A DNA stretch of 64,000 nucleotides from Aldrovandia affinis. Lineage: Eukaryota > Chordata > Actinopteri > Notacanthiformes > Halosauridae. Both the position numbers and the translations under genes were made by a program. Where the stretch lies: NCBI GenBank assembly GCA_029706075.1, contig JAINUG010000072.1, forward strand, positions 2,855,367-2,919,366, in the 5' to 3' direction. Each line of letters begins with the position of its first letter. The stretch's first letter is position 1. Positions 599 to 31,505 of this stretch are shown piece after piece. The notes under the pieces were generated by a model. The model searched no databases, had not been told where the DNA came from, and was given only the letters and a program-made list of their open reading frames with translations.

Positions 599-835
599 GA
601 GGTGCACGGTGGAGCAGTGGATAGCACTGTTGCCGCACAGTAAGAAGGTCCCGGGGTCGAATCCCGGCTGGGGTTTTTCTATGTGGAGTTTGCATGTTCT
701 CCTGTGAACTCTCTGTGTGGGTTTCCTCCAGGTACTCCGGTTTCCTCCCACAGACCAAAGACATGCACATTAGGCTAATTGGAGAGTCTAGGTATGAGTG
801 AGTGAGTGAATGGTGTATGTGCTCTAATAGTATAT
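599..835 (+). repeat. tRNA-headed fish SINE-like repeat (5' part)
   Basis: A tRNA-like head opens the repeat, with an A-box-like stretch (ggagcagtggatagcactg) and a slightly damaged B box (ggtcgaatccc). It is followed by the widespread fish strings 'gtttcctccaggtactccgg' and 'agaccaaagacatgcac'. The copy breaks off in a 'gagtgagtgagtgaatgg' tract. The 3' part of the same repeat appears separately at 51001-51180. The family is recognised from memory, and calling it a SINE rests on the Pol III-like head. It is not a functional tRNA because no cloverleaf can be completed. Confidence 0.7.
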
Positions 836-1476
836 GAGCATTACAAAACAAACAAAAAAGAACTGGGATAAAAAGATACTGGTCTCTCTTTGAAACTAAT
901 GTCATTGGTATTTTAAATGTGCCCTTCAAACTCAAAGTTGTTAACAATGCAGGTCAGGGAGAATGATATCAGTGCCTATTTCAGATATGTATGTCATCTT
1001 TAAATGCAAGAACCGATCAATAGCATCAAATTCTTTCGCGAGACCCAAGGCTCATTGCATTCAGTGTGGATCATTTCCTCCTCAAGGTAGAGAAAAGGCC
1101 CTATCCTTTGAGGAATGAACAAGCTATTTTTGTACATCTGTAATATCCATATCAACCTCTAAAAAGTGTTCCATTGTGGGATATTAAACTGCTTATTCCC
1201 CCCCGGAGAATTTAAAGAAGCTGAGTGACATGTAAGCACAGAGGCAAACTCTCGCCGTGTGGCTTGTATAGTGCAAATTAGCCGGTGACTCATGGGTAAG
1301 TGTACCGCAGGGGTGTGAGGGGAGGGTGGTAAAGCTGTGAGTTGAGGACAATGTACATCTGCTGATGTCAAATGTGATCGAAAAATAATCCTAAAATGTT
1401 TGTGGCTCCATACTTTCTGATTAATTCAACTTGAAAAAAGAAACAGCATTGAAAATAAATTCATACATTCAAATGT
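836..1476. other. Unannotated sequence
   Basis: No recognisable gene or repeat. Minus-strand open frames here run into the preceding repeat and look like chance ORFs. Confidence 0.4.
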
Positions 1477-1498
1477 GTATATATATATATATATATAC
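1477..1498. repeat. (TA)n microsatellite
   Basis: About ten TA dinucleotides lie immediately beside the left end of the Tc1-like element. Tc1 elements insert at TA, so the target site probably lay in this tract. Confidence 0.9.
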
Positions 1499-1502
1499 AT
1501 AC

Positions 1503-2441
1503 AATGGGGGAAATAAGTATTGAACATTTTTGTCCAGTAAATGTATTTCCAATGAGCCTATTCAAGTGAAATTTGCACCAGAGTTTGGTATTAACTCAAA
1601 AAATCCAGACAAAAAATCTAAACATTAAAGTCAATATGTAAATAAAGTTATGTGTAATAAAGTGGAATTAAACAGGAAAAAATAAAATATTTTTCCTGAT
1701 TCTCTTAGAGTCCTTTAAGTGCCATTTGGCAAACTCCAGGTGGGCTGTCATATGCCTTTCACTCAGGAGTAGCTTCCGTCTAGCCACTACCAAAAAGGCC
1801 TGATTGATGGAGTGCTGCAGAGATGTTTGTCCTTCTGCCAGGTTCTCCCATCGCTGCAGAGGAACTCTGAAGCTCTCTTAGAGTGGCCATTGGGTTCTTG
1901 GTCACCTCCCTGACCATGGCCCTTCTTGCCGGGTTACTGAGTTTGGCCAGACGGCCAGCTCTAAGAAGAGTTGTGGTGCTTCCAAACTTCTTCCATTTCA
2001 CAATGATGGAGCCCACTGTTCTCCTGGGTACTTTCAATGCTTTAGCAATGTTTTTATACCCTTCCCCAGATCTATGCCTCAACACAATTCTATCTCGGAG
2101 GTCTATGGAGAGTTCCTAGGACTTCATGGCTTGGTTTTTACTGTGACATGCACTGTCAACTGTGGGACCTTATATAGACAGGTGTGTGCCTTTCCAAATC
2201 ATGCCCAATCAATTGAATTTACCACAGGTGGACTAGAATCAAGTTGTAGAAACATCTCAAGCAGTATCTAATGTCTAATATAGCAAATGTCTAAAAACCT
2301 GTTTTCACTTTGTTATTATGGGCTATTTTGTGTAGAATTTTGAGACAAAAAATGAAAAATGAATCTATTGTAGAATAAGTCTGTAATGCAATGAAACGTG
2401 GAGAGGGTGAAAGGGGTGTGCAGACTTTCCGGCTTGACTGT
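1503..2441 (-). mobile_element. Decayed, apparently composite Tc1-like transposon
   Basis: Read on the minus strand, the element begins at 2441 with the common fish Tc1 terminus 'cagtcaagccggaaagtctg'. It continues through a Tc1 5' leader and the helix-turn-helix half of the transposase. The opposite end reads 'caatgggggaaataagtatt', a terminus I associate with a different fish Tc1 family. The two ends are therefore not inverted repeats of each other. The catalytic half of the transposase is missing. Either an internal recombination joined two elements, or one Tc1 inserted into another followed by deletion. Confidence 0.75.
1690..2127 (-). pseudogene. Tc1 transposase N-terminal fragment
   Basis: This is the DNA-binding half of a fish Tc1 transposase. 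From the ATG at 2127 the frame shows an early TAG at codon 4. It then shows the family strings 'LRHRSGEGYKNIAKALKVP', 'WKKFGSTTTL', 'GRLAKLSNPARRA' and 'REVTKNPMATL', which form the paired helix-turn-helix (PAIRED-like) domain and linker. Near 1783-1790 a one-base loss shifts the frame; afterwards 'ARRKLLLSERHMTAHLEF' and 'AKWHLKDS' continue in another frame. The three DDE catalytic residues are absent. It is a dead relic with no functional product expected. Confidence 0.85.
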
Positions 2442-5325
2442 ATATAATAAAATTACAGTATGACAGATTTATTCACTTTAAAAAGACATGTATATATGTA
2501 TTTAAAAAAATATATAAATATATATATAATATGATATGTTTTACTGGATAATTTACACCACTCTTAGTTCAATTATCTGTCTTTCCTCTTGGGTATTCAC
2601 AGTCTAGACAATCATTTCGTATGAGGACATACATATACCGCACTGGAAGTTTAGGGTGTGGAAAATCATTAAGTGGGATTGAATTACATGGCTGAAACAG
2701 GCCCGATTGAACCCCTGTTCTTGTAAATGCCATGACCTCAGATGTAATATCCTGCAAGACTTCCCGTCAAAGGTCTGTTTTTTAAGTTTCAAGCTGGCGG
2801 TTCTTCTTGTCTAGAAAACAGCTACTTGTCAGATCTGAAGGCTTTCAGTGCGAGGGGGTGCTGTCTAATGGAGAGACACACAATGGAGAGATCCATGCAA
2901 TACTCCCACATGGCTTTTTCTCATACACGCTGGTTATACTATGCCACTGGTTGGATACAAGCATCACAGGTAACAGGAAAATAATTAAGGTGTTGAGCTA
3001 GGTTGCTGAATCGCCCTGTTTTCCAGGAGTCTAATTACACAGTCTTCAGTGGAGGAAAAAACACATTGAATTCATTCCAATCCTCGCTTCCCCTCTTTGT
3101 ATGCAAAACAATTGCATTTCAGTTACTTATTTATTTTCCTTCCTGTTTCTACAAAAACCCTGTATGCACTCTGCTTAACGGAGTTATTTCCAGTCACTGA
3201 TTGAGTGCTTCATTTTTAGCACTCAATGGACTGAAACACTTTTTTAAAAAAAGAATAATTACAAAAAATAACTACAACAAAAAAGACAGTGTAGCTACTG
3301 TATCATTTGACAAATATATAATTGCCAATTATGTGACAGTTTTCAGGCCAAACAAGCATTTTACAACCAAACATGTTCTTATGCAAAGTGTATTCCCAAC
3401 AAAACGCACAGGAGTTGGCCTAAATTAGCTTCAGTGGCAGTTCCCCAGTTCACTGACCAATACATGCAGTCATGTGTTAACTATCAAAAATGACAGTAAT
3501 AAGAGTTTCCCATATCAATGCATTCAAAGTCACGGTGTGACATCTAGAAAACAGTGCCTAAAATGAAATAATCTAAGACAATGTATATTTTTAAGGACCA
3601 TGGGTATTAAAGAAATGAGTACTCTGTCTCAACAAAGCAGCTCTACAAAGCATAGATGTCCATGGAAATCTATACAAAAGGATGCACAGAAAGTTGTGGT
3701 AAATCATGAATCAACAAAACATATCCCTCAATTAAAGCACAATATCTGTGACATAATAATCTACATGACTGATACAATATGTAAGATTATACTCAGCGGG
3801 TATAGACTCTATCCTTAACATATATTCAATATTTGCATGCTGCAAATATTATATTCAAGCATGCTAGACACAAAAGCTGTACCTGGGCTAAATTATGATA
3901 AATTAAATGTACAGTATGAACTCAGTTCTGTTCCATGCTTCCTCTACTATAAAATGATGCTTCTCAGAAACAAAATAGAAAAAATGTCCAATAAAGAGGG
4001 TTAGACGAGATGGACATGTTTCTATTGATATCAACGCAGATGAGACAATTGTTAATGAGTGCAATGAGCACAGCGCAAAAAGACAGATCAAGGGGAAAAA
4101 CTCTGAGACATTAGGTGTTGTGACACAACATTGACTATTATATTATCTTTCTTTTACTATAATAACACCATTATTGTTATTATAATATTAACAACAATAA
4201 TACATTATTATTGAAGACATTATGGACAACAGCAAGCTTTCAAACGGTTGCATCTTAGTCGCACGTTGTGTTGCTACTTGATGTTTGGAAAGCTCAAAGT
4301 ACAGGAGTTTTAATTCAATAAAAAGCACAGCCATTTACAAAGGTTCACCATTCATATAGTAATTTGGCTTAGCAAACACTGCAATGGTGGCAAATATATG
4401 CAATAACACATCAATGAACAACCCTAATCTGTAAATACAAAGGTATGATCAGAATCAATTGAAAGGCCATGATAATACCCTGCAAATGTAAACAATGGAC
4501 AGTCCTGTGTGAGCAAATGAGGAATGCATGGCATAATCGCTCATGCATTGAAAAAATATATTTAGGAAAAGTTATTTTCATTTTAAAATAACCAACGGCT
4601 GAAATATGTCATGGCACTCCTGGTGTTAATGAGAATGTGGGAAAGTGTCCTGATTGGCCAGTTCACAGTCAAGCATTCGCCACACCTTCCGCTCATTGCC
4701 CTGTTGCACTTTGCACTACCTGCATCAGCACTTTTAAAATGATTAACGAGGTTCCGATATTAGCCTGTGGGCTGAAGATACCATTCAGCTGGACATTTGA
4801 GGGGAAACTGTGAAACCTGGACCTTTTTCCCTGAAGTGTGGTTGTGTGAGTTCCATCGATCATACTACTGTTGCTGGTAACATTTCCTGAGGAAAATACT
4901 GTATTACTTTAGGCAGGAAGTGAATTTATTTCTGTCAACACTGTGTGACTGACACACAGCTGTGACAAGTGCAGTTTGTTCAGTATTACACCCCAAAGTG
5001 TGTACAGCACCAGTGGTCATAAGTATAGTTTTATGGAACAATATACATGTAATATAATACATATATATAATATATGTAACATATAACAAACCCTGTTACA
5101 TGGTTTCTAGAAAATCACTGAGGTTTTCTGTCTTTGTTCAACATCACAAATCCATAAACCATTTACTGGCTTGGCCATTATTTTTCTGAGATTCAGCGGG
5201 GGATGCCTCTTTTAGTCCTAATTCTGATTTATAATGTTCACAAATGTCTATAAATTATTGAGCGGTATAAAATATTGAGAGCTCTTGATTGAAGATGGAC
5301 TGGCTTACCTCAAGGTTCTCTTTTT
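2442..5325. other. Long AT-rich stretch without recognisable genes
   Basis: No supported gene is visible. The region contains an AT-rich tract at 2490-2530 and a small inverted repeat around 3827-3850 (aatatttgca/tgcaaatatt). A GC-richer block at 4640-4880 could be conserved non-coding DNA, but nothing in the sequence proves it. Confidence 0.4.
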
Positions 5326-15705: not shown

Positions 15706-15959
15706 AACTCTTTGATGAGTTTTTTCAGAGTTCTACACTCTAAAAAATAAAGTAAGGGGGTAGTAAATTCAACTTAAATAAATATGCAATTTCAATACAA
15801 ACATTTAAGTTTGCAGCATATATTTGTTTAACTAAGTAACCAACTTTATTCATCTAGTTAAACCAAGTTGAAAATAAAAAAATGATCCATACTCATTTTC
15901 ATGTGTAATTTGATTGCATAACGGTGTATCAGCCCAACAAGACACAAATATCAAGTTGA

Positions 15960-16250
15960 CATTACGCACGCTTTTATACTGAAATTCATAAGATGCGTGG
16001 GCGTGGACTCTCAAGCACCAGACGAGAGGCTCCAGGTGCAGCCGTTTTGGAAAGCCGAGACACGCTGTCTGCTTGCAGAGAACCGCTGCAGTCTGCTTTT
16101 CAATTTCACGTTTTTAGTCTGTGAGAGACTGTGAGAGAGAAGAGTTCGGGACTGCGTATCATTGTTCACCCGGATTGCTGCGCTGCCAACGTCAGGTCCT
16201 CTGCCGGGGACGCCAGGCATTAACACGTGGCTGCTGATGCCGCTTGAAAG
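15960..16250 (+). promoter_or_regulatory. Promoter and non-coding first exon of the element's gene
   Basis: A GC/CpG-rich block contains a TATA-like 'cttttatactg' at about 15970 and a GC/KLF-box 'gggcgtgg' at about 15999. The likely exon ends at 16250 in an excellent donor (cttgaaag|gtgagc). A matching acceptor, 'gttgtgttatctag', ends at 16748, just before the first coding exon. Transcription in the plus direction is inferred; no transcript evidence is available. Confidence 0.45.
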
Positions 16251-16770
16251 GTGAGCACTGGACCGCCATTTTAGCATTTCGTTAGAGACACCAGCTAAGT
16301 TTTTCACCGAATCTGGATTATAGCCTACATTTTCACAATGAATTGGTGCTGTAAAATTTGCAAATATGAAACTCCCAGATTTCAAAACGGGTCTAAAAAC
16401 TACACGCCTATAACAAAGTGTGCAGAGTACATCTGGGGCACATTTAAAGTAATGGCTAACTTTACAATAAGACTCAGTGATTATTCGCCCACTCAGATAA
16501 GTCCAGTGTAATTTTTCAATCCACTGGCTCAATAATCAAAAAATCAAATTTCAAAAAAGAAATAAACTGCTCAATCACTTTTACCTTTGGCCACCATAGC
16601 ACTTCAGTTGTTTGGAAAAACTGCTACACTAACTACTAACTGTTTTGTGGATTAAAACACTATTACCTTATTTCATGCAAGTTTATTTCTGGTTCAGATT
16701 CACATTGTTGTCAGGATGCTTTTCTCACACTGTCGTTGTGTTATCTAGTGATAGCAAAACAAGATGGCCG

Positions 16771-18745
16771 ATGTCACCGCAAACAACAAGCGATCTTGAG
16801 ACAGAGGAGAACATGGTACGAACTCTCATTGTGCTCAATGGCATACAGTTAACCAATGGACTGCAAATTTTTATTCGAAAACATCCTTGCCTGAAAGAAC
16901 CAGGGTCCTACAATGGATGTTACGGATGGCAACAAAGACTGAAATTTAAAATGGGCAATTACAGATCGAAACTTAGGGGTCTTGGGTGCCCTGAGCTTGA
17001 TGTTAACTCCTCCAAAAAAGCGAGCCAATGAGAAGACGCCTGCAAAGAACGTGAAGAAAGCTCGGAAGGGTGAGGCAAACTACCTGCCACCTCCTCCTCA
17101 AGGAGAAACAGAAGAAAGCCTTGAACAAGAAAGACTGGAGCTTCTAAGTGAGGTAAAGAAGAGAAATAATTCCCAGATCATCAATGACAAAATGGAAAAG
17201 ACCTTTTCCATTCGGAGACAAGAAGTTGTCACCCTGGCCCCACCTGTCAGTGACTTGAAGGAACGATGGCCTGCTCTATTTCTTCCAGCACAGGTTAATG
17301 CTGTTTTTTTATTTTGTTGTTGTATTTGGAATAGGCAATTAAGCAGGAGTATGGTTTCAACTGAGTGATAGTTTAATTCTGATATCTCGTATACCATGTT
17401 GCTTTCTTTTGTGTCACACAGATCAAGGAAGAATATAAAAGAATCACCACAGCAAATCTGGAGTCAACTTTCATGGCAAATCTGGACCAGTGCATACCAA
17501 GTTTGATGCCGTTGGTGATGTCAAGAGGAGGGGCTGCCAAATATAAGATCCAGAAAATCATGGAACTTCTGAAGGTGCATGGTTTGACATTTACAATAGG
17601 AGAAACTAAGCTAACCACTGTCTAAAAAAAGTATCTATTTGACCTTTTTTCTTTTTTGAATTCTCTATCAGAACAACACAGTTGAAATTCGCAGAGAGGT
17701 TGCCATTCGCTGCTTGGTGGTCTACCTTGGGGAAAACGAGGATCATCTTTTTGAATATGTGGTAGGTAAAACCGAATCCCCCTGCAACACCTTTCCCATT
17801 GACACACAGCACAGCTCATTGACATGCTTGAATTGTCTGATAAATTGGTTGTTAGACATTTCTATCTAGGAGTGAAATTTAAGTTATGAAATTGAAGCAA
17901 AATTGAACTTTCCTTTCATGCTGTCTTTGTTAATCATTCACCAGTATCTGCCTCTCCCTTCCCTCTCCTTGTTTCTTTTTTGCTGCTGCCTGTTGCTCTG
18001 CACTCGGTGATTCACAGGAACTAAGTAACTTCTTTTCTTTTACTTAAGCACATGTCCTGAATGGAAATGCGGTAAAAGCATTTTTTTCTTGACTCCAGAG
18101 CACTGTTATAGCATTTGCCTTCCACTATGATAAAAAAAAAGCAAACATAGGTAGCTAGGGGTTGAGTGTGCCAGCTTAATGACAATGAATACTGATATTT
18201 GTTTCTGATATGCTTGCATTCAGGATTCTGAGGGCCAAATTGGAGATCTTGAGAGTCGGGTGATGAAGATCCTAGTCACCAAAAGCGGCACAGCATCTGA
18301 TCCAGCCAGTGCGACCGTCATGATAGAGGGCACAGAAGTCCTGCAGGGGTTGGATGTACCAAGGGCCTGTGCTTTGCTGATGGGCCTCATCTATGCCCTC
18401 AATCTGAGCTACCCACGAGAGCTGAAGTACACATGTGAGGTATTTCAGAAGGTATTCCTGAAATTAGATGGTCAGAAAAGCAGCCCAAAAGTCACATCTC
18501 TAAAGCAAAAGCTGCTAGGAAAGCCTTTGAACCTCATCGCTGAAAATCAAACATGGACACCTCTCATTTGTGCTGTGATGGACTTGCTGTTCCAGTTGTT
18601 CTTCCTAGATTACGTGGTTAAATGTCATCAGCTCGCATCTGAGATGGTTGCTGCTCGTGTTATTCCAGTCTTTGAAGTTGATTGTCATGTCTGGAGAGCT
18701 GGAATATTGCGGAGTGTATTCTTTTCAGCTGACCCAGAATGTTAA
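16771..18745 (+). CDS. SAMD3-like fish multicopy protein, four exons, one frameshift
   Basis: Coding exons are 16771-17293, 17422-17574, 17672-17761 and 18224-18745. All introns are phase 0 with GT-AG borders, giving about 428 residues. Family landmarks in order are 'HPCLKEPGSYNGCYGWQQ', 'MGNYRSKLRGLGCPELDVN', 'KKARKGEANYLPPPPQGET', 'SIRRQEVVTLAPPVSDLKER', 'RREVAIRCLVVYLGENEDHL', 'MKILVTKSGTASDPA', 'VMIEGTEVLQGLD' and 'MGLIYALNLSYPRELKYT'. These match the repetitive teleost proteins annotated as SAM-domain protein 3-like; the SAM domain itself is not visible. The biochemical role is unknown. The in-frame ATG is at 16771; an earlier out-of-frame ATG with better context sits at 16764. Near 17005-17020, beside a run of six A, one extra base moves the frame by +1, so this copy may be inactive. 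The open frame also runs about 70 codons past the usual family end. Intron retention shows the gene was not copied through mRNA. Confidence 0.7.
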
Positions 18746-18751
18746 CCGTTT

Positions 18752-19735
18752 TTGATAGTGCTTGTTAGCGATATTTGCACTTAATTTGGATCCACAACCA
18801 TAAAGGCATAGTTCATGAGTTTGCCAAAATGTTGAACCGTCCTTCTACCTCTGTGAGGTTCACAGTGGTTTGAAGTCACTGACTCAACTCGCTACTAATA
18901 GTTCTCTGAATCTAGATCTGTTTAACCCGTTTAATCCCAGAGTAAGTGCATGCATGTTACTCCTAGACCTCCCTAACATATAAACTGTATGTTTTTTTTT
19001 TTCATTTAATGATGGTTAAGTTAATGAAAATTTAAGTTTTATCCTTGGTCACAATTGTGACCGGTGGGAAACAGCATAGTCAAACTTTAGAGGAATTCTG
19101 CAATTTGACCCATTTACCCATCAGAAAACACACCACACACACACTAGCACACCATACACACTTAACACACTAACGCACTACACACACTACATGTACAAAC
19201 ACTATACACACTAATACACTAACACACAAGCACTACTCACACACTACACACACATTAACACACTACACACACACATTAACACACACTAACACACCACACA
19301 CGCATTAACACACCATACACACTACACACACTAACACTACAGACACACATTAGCACGCTACACGTACTAACACTACACATACTAATACACTACACACACC
19401 ATAACACGCTACATACACACTACACACACTAACACTACATACACACACACTAACACACTACTGACCAAAACTGACCAAAATGGCAGCATCAAGATCATAA
19501 AAAATGAAAATTGATGTTAAACAGCTCTTGATTCAGAGAACTATGAGTAGCAAGTTTTGATAATGCTGTCAGCAATATTTGCACTTATATTGGATCCACA
19601 ACCAGGCATAGTTCATAAGTTTGCCAAAATGTAGAACTGTCCTTTTACCTCCGAGGGTCACAGTGGTTTGACGTCACTCACTACTGTTGGGTCTCTGAAT
19701 CAAGAGAGATGAATGATGTCAAAATTCAAGTTTAA
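18752..19735. repeat. Direct repeat pair flanking a CACTA-rich tract
   Basis: About 18760-18925 and 19551-19715 are diverged direct copies sharing 'atatttgcactta', 'ttggatccacaacca', 'ggcatagttcat' and 'agtttgccaaaatgt'. A short inverted copy of 'tagttctctgaatc' is found at about 18898-18915 and 19532-19548, on the inner edges. All of it lies in the 3' untranslated region of the element's gene. Confidence 0.8.
19118..19470. repeat. ACAC/CTAACAC low-complexity minisatellite
   Basis: About 350 bp of irregular repeats of cacactacac, ctaacac and cattaacac, with no fixed unit length. It lies between the two direct repeats and inside the putative 3' UTR. Confidence 0.9.
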
Positions 19736-19748
19736 AGGATGTTTACGA

Positions 19749-19754
19749 AATAAA
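19749..19754 (+). terminator. Likely poly(A) signal of the element's gene
   Basis: AATAAA is followed within 30 bp by a GT-rich stretch (gtgaattgtggttcttg). It is about 1 kb after the stop codon and before the right subterminal repeats, consistent with the 3' end of the SAMD3-like transcript. Confidence 0.5.
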
Positions 19755-20260
19755 CTGTTTGAATTGTGAATTGTGGTTCTTGTTTATTATTTCCCCCAAC
19801 TTGAGTAAAATGAGTTGCATATACTATAATAAGTATGTTTACTTTTGCATGGACATTTCTGAGTAGAAAACATTCACTAAATAAAGTTAGAACAACTTAA
19901 ATTTGAATGATGAGATAACAACCTTTTTAAGGAATGTTCATTAATTTTAAGTAAGCACTACTTGATTTAGCTCTTGGATATATATAAAAATCATGGTCAT
20001 TGTACTTGATTTTTTGTTGTACTTAAAACGTATATCAAGTACAACCAATGTGAAAATTCAATAGTATATACAGAAAATCAATTAGATTCAACTTAATACA
20101 GCTTTCTATTTGTGTGGCTATTTAAGTTGGCTTTGTAATGCTGGACTAGTACTGACTACTAAATTAACACTGAAGTTAGGACAACTTAAAAAGATCTATG
20201 CAAAAAGTAAACATACCTTATTGAGTAAACTCAGTACATTTTTTTTTAGAGTGTAGTTCT

Positions 20261-29765: not shown

Positions 29766-31098
29766 AAGCCAAAAAACAAAAACAAAAAATGCATTTACTC
29801 TCAAAGTTAAGGACACATTTTTATTGAATCCTGGCCAAGCAGAAATAATTAATAAGCGATGGATGTATCTGCCTTTCCTGCAAATTCCTCTGTAGGTGAA
29901 CAGACTATTGAACAAACAGCTCTAACAAATTACCCATCACCAGCTGGTTCCCAAGAAAATGCAATGAAAACAATTCTCAGAATTGACTCGATACCCTTGC
30001 TTTGTCTGCATTGTTTCTCAGAACTAGCAATTTATCGATGGAGAGGAATAGTGTTTTGAGGCCAATGAAAAACATTTGATGTCACCTACATATTTTGAAA
30101 TAATTATTTGCCTTTTGCTGTCCATTCAACCGAAAAAAGGAGGGTGAAGCCAGGACATAGGGGGAGTTTCTATGTACTGTTACATGCTCTTTTTGGGTTT
30201 TTGAAATTGCTGAAATATGTAAGACAGCAGGCGAGAAAAAAATAAAATCCTGAAACAGCATTACGAAGGCCGCAAGAGCTGCAGGGATTTTGAAAAAAAG
30301 AAGAAATAAAATAAAAATAGTAATTAAAAAATACACTGACTTCAGCTCACCTTATAAAACTCAATTTATTCAAGTGAGATTCGCAGCTCTGGAAAGTTCA
30401 GAGAAAAAGGGAAAAAAGATAACAATTGAAAACGGTGAGTGTTTTATCACAGCGTAGATACGGATCAAACCCAAACCCTCTCGTGATGTCTGTGTATAAA
30501 AGAGAGGAGGAATGGAATCAGTGTTAAAGAGAGGCGGCGGAGCCGGAGAGGGCCAAAAAAGGAGTGACGGAAAAATAAACATATCTATTGCAAATTAGCC
30601 AGCTCTGAGCTGTGGCGACATTCTTGTTTCAAAGATTAGCTTCCACGCATCCATTGCAGCCTGTCCGACATAGCTTAGCAACATAATTCTACTGAATACA
30701 AATCCATCAAATCCAGCTCTGCGCTGTATGATCCGTTCAATTTGTGATAATGATGACAGTTTTATATTTGTTTAATATGTACTATGTAGGCTTATGTGTA
30801 TTCAATGGGCCTATCACGTACATGGAATGCATACAGTACTGCCCACATATATGTTATTACTATTCCACAGATTACTAAAGGCATATCATGTTGTCATTAC
30901 TTATTCATTATTACTCTCATTATTTCAAACATATTGTCGAAGACATTCCTTTATCCCAAATGTTGACTCTTTATAATTGCATTGGCTTATGGGTGCCAGA
31001 GCGTTACGCACCTGACACAATCTGAGTTTGCTCACAAACTGAGGAAGTAAATTGGGTGGGATGAAATACGGAAAACAAGGCTGACTCTGCGCATATGT
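29766..31098. other. Unannotated sequence, perhaps part regulatory
   Basis: 30360-30680 has balanced composition and long conserved-looking words (for example caaattagccagctctgagc) but no frame. No gene is visible. Confidence 0.3.
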
Positions 31099-31290
31099 AC
31101 ACACCAGTTACCATTTCTGCCTTAACGGATACTATCGTGTGCACAACTGATACTATCACATACACACCAGATACCATTCCTGCCTTAATGGATACTATCA
31201 TGTGCACAACTGATACTATCACATACACACCAGATACCATTCCTGCCTTAACGGATACTATCATGTGCACAACTGATAGCATTTAATGTG
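31099..31290. repeat. 63-bp tandem repeat, three copies
   Basis: Units start at 31099, 31162 and 31225 and are nearly identical (gccttaa[c/t]ggatactatc core). Each unit itself contains two gatactatc half-units, pointing to an older shorter period. Copies two and three differ at very few positions, so the last duplication is recent. Confidence 0.95.
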
Positions 31291-31505
31291 CACAAGATAC
31301 TTTTGCATGCTCCCCCGATACTATCTGGTGCATAGTATACAACAGTATCTGGTGCACACATGATAATATCTGGTGTGTAAACAATAGTATCTGGTATTCA
31401 CAATATATTATCCGGTGTGCAAACAATAGTATATTGTATGCACAAGAGAGTAAGTATATGGTGTGAAAACATTAGTATCTTGTATGCACAAGAGAGTATC
31501 AAGCA
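31291..31505. repeat. Degenerate extension of the gatactatc repeat
   Basis: Irregular repeats of 'agtatctggtg', 'caatagtat' and 'tgtatgcacaagagagta'. These look like diverged relatives of the 63-bp array. Confidence 0.65.

Follow-up and report, generated by a model that had tools for sequence, protein, structure and literature searches.

What is the 4.5-kb unit with matching ends, AGTTCT on either side and a SAMD3-like coding region inside, which lies in a stretch of DNA from Aldrovandia affinis? The stretch analyzed here (GCA_029706075.1, contig JAINUG010000072.1, positions 2,855,367-2,919,366 of the forward strand; 64,000 nt, hereafter referred to as the window, from a source genome of 1.22 Gb) had been interpreted in a sequence-only reading as harboring an element with a 6-bp target duplication and, as its only visible gene, a complete multi-exon SAMD3-like gene, which was thought to travel as cargo or to belong to the mobilisation machinery of an undescribed transposon group. 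We conclude that the unit is very probably a deletion derivative, young and non-autonomous, of a CACTA/EnSpm (CMC) cut-and-paste transposon, and that the SAMD3-like sequence probably represents the accessory second open reading frame (ORF2) carried by an EnSpm-type lineage of teleosts. The name SAMD3-like is provisional and taken over from the earlier reading; ORF2 may resemble the non-SAM part of vertebrate SAMD3.

The 4.5-kb element and its genomic copies

The limits of the element, as read from its ends and flanks, are as follows.

15736..20253, + strand: probable non-autonomous EnSpm/CACTA-type element of 4,518 bp, derived from an 8.3-kb element by internal deletion (ends and flanks read; aligned to longer copies)
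15736..15747, + strand: left terminal inverted repeat (TIR) CACTCTAAAAAA (read directly; inverted-repeat pair; alignment to longer copies)
20242..20253, - strand: right TIR TTTTTTAGAGTG (read directly; inverted-repeat pair; alignment to longer copies)
15734..15735, no strand: left TA target-site duplication (flanks read; unoccupied repeat copies show the junction without the second TA)
20254..20255, no strand: right TA target-site duplication (flanks read; unoccupied repeat copies)

The matching inverted ends noted earlier are indeed present in the window (ACACTCTAAAAAA at 15735, TTTTTTAGAGTGT at 20254). The terminal 13-mer alone proves nothing, since it is rarer in the 1.22-Gb genome than its reversed control (139 versus 245 sites), but the complete left and right ends recur jointly in 11 paired copies, from which we conclude that the unit is real. 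A genome search with the left end (266 bp) gave 15 matches, 13 of them at ≥99% identity, including one on C1619 that is cut by the contig end, the remaining two being distant, at 75% and 65%. With the right end (365 bp) there were 14 matches, of which 13 are full-length at ≥99% and one is partial. The sequence-only reading had suggested looking for full copies in the source genome with both termini, and this search yields the 11 paired copies of what we call family A, which measure 3.1-8.7 kb and the longer of which carry a transposase. Two more paired copies, C224 and C1778, represent a second family whose ends are similar and which retains remnants of the SAMD3-like sequence; unpaired ends on C1619, C2209, C281 and C1113 are left out of the paired-copy counts. 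Across the 55 pairs that can be formed from the 11 family A copies, mismatches amount to 0.1-0.7% (gaps uncounted), which indicates recent movement.

All 13 paired copies start with CACTCT and 12 of them end with AGAGTG (TGAGTG in C1912b), in agreement with the 5'-CAC start of CMC ends. CACTA/EnSpm ends typically read CACTA or CACTG; the fifth terminal base of the CACTCT ends is C, neither A nor G. Subterminal arrays in both orientations had also been described, of which a part holds: the 7-mers AACTTAA/TTAAGTT are modestly enriched at both ends (observed 2, expected 0.11 on the left; 4, expected 0.40 on the right; 3, expected 1.08 in the interior), whereas the 6-mers ACTTAA/TTAAGT are clearly enriched at the right end only (six, a count reached in 2 of 500 resamples) and not clearly at the left (two; 41 of 500), and the word arrays is generous.

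Compared with the 8,298-bp copies C1958 and C1869, the window copy is without positions ~645-3440 and ~3933-4906 in the alignment. The first of these segments codes for the C2H2-like N-terminus and the DDE-type core of the transposase, the second for the N-terminal part of the SAMD3-like ORF, which includes a weak PB1 match. What remains between the ends is listed below.

16338..16380, + strand: transposase remnant, first residues of the C2H2-like N-terminus, ended by deletion 1 (protein alignment)
16379..16380, no strand: deletion junction 1, full-length positions ~645/~3440, ~2.8 kb including the transposase lost (alignment; also in C1976, C1912b, C2500, C2097 and C713)
16807..17296, + strand: main exon of the truncated SAMD3-like ORF2, frameshift near 17015 (alignment edges)
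16870..16873, no strand: deletion junction 2, full-length positions ~3933/~4906, ~1 kb including the PB1-like N-terminal part of ORF2 lost (alignment; also in C1976, C1912b, C2500 and C2097)
17401..17574, + strand: next exon of the SAMD3-like ORF2 (alignment edges)
17663..17761, + strand: further exon of the SAMD3-like ORF2 (alignment edges)
18188..18523, + strand: C-terminal exon of the SAMD3-like ORF2 (alignment edges)

Both junctions are common to five copies, i.e. the window copy, C1976, C1912b, C2500 and C2097, while C713 has junction 1 in common with the window and a different second junction. From these shared and partly shared junctions we conclude that two successive deletions gave rise to the transposase-less form, which multiplied afterwards.

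The SAMD3-like gene of the window is neither complete nor intact. Its ORF2 frame shifts near 17,015 and runs into a stop after 72 codons; the same exon is open for 174-177 codons in C1976, C2500 and C2097 and breaks after 80 in C1912b. The multi-exon SAMD3-like coding region reported earlier is therefore there, but its supposed completeness is contradicted by the two deletions and the frameshift. Nor is it the only gene visible, since residues 1-22 of the transposase match 16338-16403 with 73% identity.

Two structural peculiarities were observed within copies of the element. The family A copy on C2056 (1621400-1631000) shows a 1.1-kb internal inversion and ~0.4 kb of additional sequence, and the window copy contains an imperfect ACACACTA-type tandem array at 19127-19461, flanked by direct repeats spaced by ~800 bp, together with an inverted repeat pair.

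Target-site duplication

AGTTCT, which is present on both flanks of the window copy, had been taken for a 6-bp target duplication. A genome search with the joined flanks gave 41 matches, two of which are the locus itself; 23 others cross the junction, and 20 of these, each a copy of the flanking repeat that lacks the element, were fetched. Sequence is present on either side of the junction in every one of the 20 (L075 and L076 are gapped just left of it), and the unoccupied copies already carry AGTTCTAGTTCT (AGTTC-TA-GTTCT). Fourteen of the 20 lie within one mismatch of AGTTCTAGTTCTAATTC, five of them exactly, and AGTTCTAGTTCTAATTC fits better than a form with a single AGTTCT in 16, equally well in three and worse in one. 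As AGTTCT was already doubled in the target, only TA was duplicated on insertion, and the 6-bp duplication is rejected as an artefact. IS3EU is a known group with 6-bp duplications; it is rejected together with other such superfamilies, the duplication being 2 bp.

The same length was found at a second site. For C713, which lies in what looks like a tRNA-derived repeat, other than the old repeat that harbors the window copy, the unoccupied form AGCATGGTGCTGTCAAC with one TG occurs 14 times in the genome and its reversed control not at all, and the form with TG twice has no match, counting exact matches only. Empty sites, which the sequence-only reading had proposed to look for in relatives, were found in the source genome itself for the window and the C713 sites. 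Among the family A copies, the flanks repeat TA in nine of 11 and TG in one (C713), with no match in one (C1958), and C224 and C1778 of the second family are flanked by TA. Overall, a 2-bp repeat flanks 12 of the 13 paired copies, which agrees with the 2-3 bp duplications of CMC elements, while a 6-bp repeat was found in none of the 12 paired copies other than the window copy.

The transposase and its SAMD3-like partner

Four transposases, namely those of family A, of two further families B and C and of C1951, have in common, among other invariant residues, D70, D162, C182-x2-C185, H392-x3-H396 and E416. These residues fit the DDE, C(2)C, H(3)H signature given for CMC transposases in PMC12730594, where the assignment of the DDE residues is our own, made from this published description, and further acidic residues are invariant as well. 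The window copy itself has lost the transposase gene. In Pfam, the family A transposase matches tnp2 (Transposase_21) with 20.2 bits (cut-off 28.6; 4e-4) and Plavaka with 22.1 bits (1e-4), pieces of family B match tnp2 weakly (12.7-13.0 bits) and Plavaka not at all, and the transposases of C1624 (family C) and C1951 match neither. With Pfam matches under the cut-off or absent, we base the filing on motifs, ends and duplication length, by which the transposase fits the CACTA/EnSpm clade.

Next to the transposase, ORF2 is a regular partner. The genome search with ORF2 gave 126 rows at ≥69 loci (104 of 256 candidates scored), that with the transposase 82 rows at ≥67 loci (73 of 416 candidates scored). 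A SAMD3-like match lies within 20 kb of 14 of the 18 listed transposase loci with ≥45% identity and of 2 of the 49 below 45%. In all 16 listed pairs ORF2 is located downstream on the same strand at a distance of 0.4-3.3 kb, with 0.15 pairs expected by chance in the whole comparison. The order of a transposase followed by an ORF2 with a PB1-like start is also found in families B (C1812, C202) and C (C2289, C1624), although the protein identity between families is only ~41-56%. In C1624, the transposase is uninterrupted (889 residues) and ORF2 holds an insertion of ~2 kb.

Comparing families A, B and C, non-synonymous differences (0.30-0.38 per site in the transposase, 0.33-0.43 in ORF2) amount in both genes to about half of the synonymous ones (~0.72-0.85), which are saturated, so that the ratio itself is untrustworthy; at the sequence level, the comparison indicates long-term purifying selection on the transposase and ORF2. 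The earlier suggestion that the SAMD3-like product is part of the mobilisation machinery is supported by the regular pairing of ORF2 with an upstream transposase and by its conservation in at least three divergent families; its role in movement is putative.

Searches for additional features of the partners gave negative results. The left end of family B showed no TIR match, no element ends were found for family C, PDB sequence searches with ORF2 and both alignments returned nothing credible, and in viral contigs scanned with two short ORF2 patterns none of the 128 pattern matches was confirmed.

Apart from the pairs, three observations were made. C1951 encodes a more distant, open transposase of 885 residues (39% identical) with no SAMD3-like match nearby among those listed; a convergent open frame, 152 residues long (L058, 4564-5019, - strand) and with no Pfam match, follows downstream and is perhaps a different second gene in the sister lineage. 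On C791, four SAMD3-like loci lie within ~41 kb, and the stretch 1719500-1728000 (L061) comprises two repeat units, each with SAMD3-like exons, which are 38-41% identical; these 8.5 kb, considered as a possible host gene, gave no transposase match. In the window, two adjoining tandem arrays are located at 31098-31488; the unit of one (..GATACTATC..) is perhaps an inverted version of that of the other (..AATAGTATC..).

Plant En/Spm encodes the transposase TnpD along with TnpA. The animal CACTA element SmTRC1 is described in PMC1636069 as having a Transposase_21 protein, a second tandem ORF and 2-bp direct repeats at 7 of 14 copies. En/Spm and SmTRC1 resemble the system described here in having a CACTA-superfamily transposase (Transposase_21, matched here only below the cut-off) and a second tandem ORF, and SmTRC1 also in its 2-bp repeats; TnpA or the second ORF of SmTRC1 and the SAMD3-like ORF are compared by role and layout only. 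Another comparable system is the zebrafish CMC-EnSpm element found by pantera, a large element described in PMC11202377 with 'two full proteins' and the 13-bp TIR CACTCAAAAAAAT. This published TIR is equal to ATTTTTTTGAGTG, with which family B ends on the right, next to TA, in C202. The likeness covers the TIR and the two-protein layout of a fish element, not the identity of the second protein; in contrast, family A ends in CACTCT and the window copy is without transposase. In its outline, we regard this lineage as known already.

Alternative explanations, mechanism and meaning

Several findings weigh against the conclusion that the window copy derives from a two-gene CACTA/EnSpm transposon. 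None of the four longer family A copies read (C1869, C1958, C2056, C1974) has an uninterrupted transposase gene, i.e. no live source was found: C1869 has an open transposase core of 631 residues with a broken N-terminal part, and in C1958 the N-terminal part is open, with a frameshift after it. C1958 is also the one copy of 11 without a 2-bp flank repeat. At least five of the 14 close pairs are near-identical family A copies, and the pairs are therefore not independent, while no ORF2 lies near 4 of the 18 close and 47 of the 49 distant listed transposase loci, and no listed transposase is located within 20 kb of 53 of the 69 listed SAMD3-like loci. Within family C, synonymous and non-synonymous differences are few (2/2 and 2/6 in two transposase stretches, with a ratio of 0.92 in one, and 1/1 in ORF2), and recent selection is not shown. 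The tnp2, Plavaka and best PB1 (21.3 bits) matches all lie below the curated cut-offs, the filing under CACTA/EnSpm uses our own DDE assignment, and the function of ORF2 is wholly inferred.

The earlier reading had named as its simpler alternative a non-autonomous, MITE-like (miniature inverted-repeat transposable element) unit which captured a host SAMD3 gene and carries it as cargo. The window copy alone, which shows little beyond a SAMD3-like gene and TIRs, would agree with this, as would the many SAMD3-like loci without a listed transposase. However, longer copies with the same ends hold an upstream transposase and a fuller ORF2, the pairing recurs across families as divergent as those described above, and of the 87 SAM_1 matches listed for the genome, none comes closer than 270 kb to any of the 69 listed SAMD3-like loci (nearest ~276 kb; both lists are lower bounds, and contig C2256 was compared by eye). 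We therefore consider host-gene capture quite improbable, and for the window copy we reject it, since the deletion junctions mark an internal deletion of an ORF2-bearing element, which capture does not fit. A SAM domain was likewise found in none of the ORF2 pieces scanned, which distinguishes ORF2 from vertebrate SAMD3 and speaks against its identity as a host SAMD3 gene. An ancient capture predating the split of the families is conceivable.

A superfamily not yet described, which would duplicate 6 bp of its target and to which AGTTCT on both flanks would point, has practically no chance of being correct in view of the unoccupied copies and the lack of 6-bp repeats in the other paired copies, as well as the 2 bp of C713 against 14 unoccupied sites and a transposase that fits the CACTA/EnSpm signature. 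Somewhat more room, though still little, is left for a lineage that is CMC-like but separate from EnSpm in the strict sense, for example the fungal Plavaka or ESTA with duplications of 2-3 bp or TA: the Plavaka match of family A is slightly better than that to tnp2, and ESTA owes its name to TA duplications according to PMC12730594. On the other hand, family B pieces match tnp2, albeit weakly, and not Plavaka, the termini are CAC..GTG as given for EnSpm in the same source, unlike the TGT..ACA or CATCA..TGATG of Plavaka, and the fish element with the family B terminus is classed as CMC-EnSpm in PMC11202377.

Returning to the window copy as a CACTA/EnSpm derivative, we arrive at the following picture. 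The full element carries two genes on the same strand. The first encodes the transposase, which combines a C2H2-like N-terminus with a DDE core; the second, located downstream, is the multi-exon ORF2, in which a PB1-like N-terminus precedes the SAMD3-like region. Through two internal deletions the transposase and the start of ORF2 were lost, the resulting 4.5-kb unit multiplied to five places, and it entered the window site with a 2-bp TA duplication. Transposase supplied in trans by longer copies presumably cuts at the ends and inserts mostly at TA, and intact ORF2, whose middle region is conserved, may act as an accessory factor in movement, binding or assembling the ends like TnpA of plant En/Spm and associating with itself via the PB1-like domain. 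As copies without the PB1-like part still spread, the whole ORF2 is unnecessary in cis.

A more tentative idea, which we regard as possible but doubtful, is that the SAMD3-like domain arose as an EnSpm-type ORF2, that vertebrate SAMD3 is a domesticated copy which gained a SAM domain, and that the 4.5-kb derivatives may regulate or parasitise the full element. No link between SAMD3 and transposons was found in the titles and abstract openings listed, with most subscription papers, supplements and Repbase outside their scope.

If annotations treat the SAMD3-like genes of fish as ordinary genes with an oddly high copy number, many of those in this genome would instead be ORF2 copies of a transposon lineage that includes a recently active family, and SAMD3-like gene counts taken as family expansions would be misread; the status as ORF2 may explain many apparent SAMD3-like copies in fish. 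The defined two-gene system, of which natural derivatives without the transposase or without part of ORF2 exist, makes it possible to test what an accessory protein does in an animal CACTA element, and the origin of vertebrate SAMD3 likewise becomes testable.

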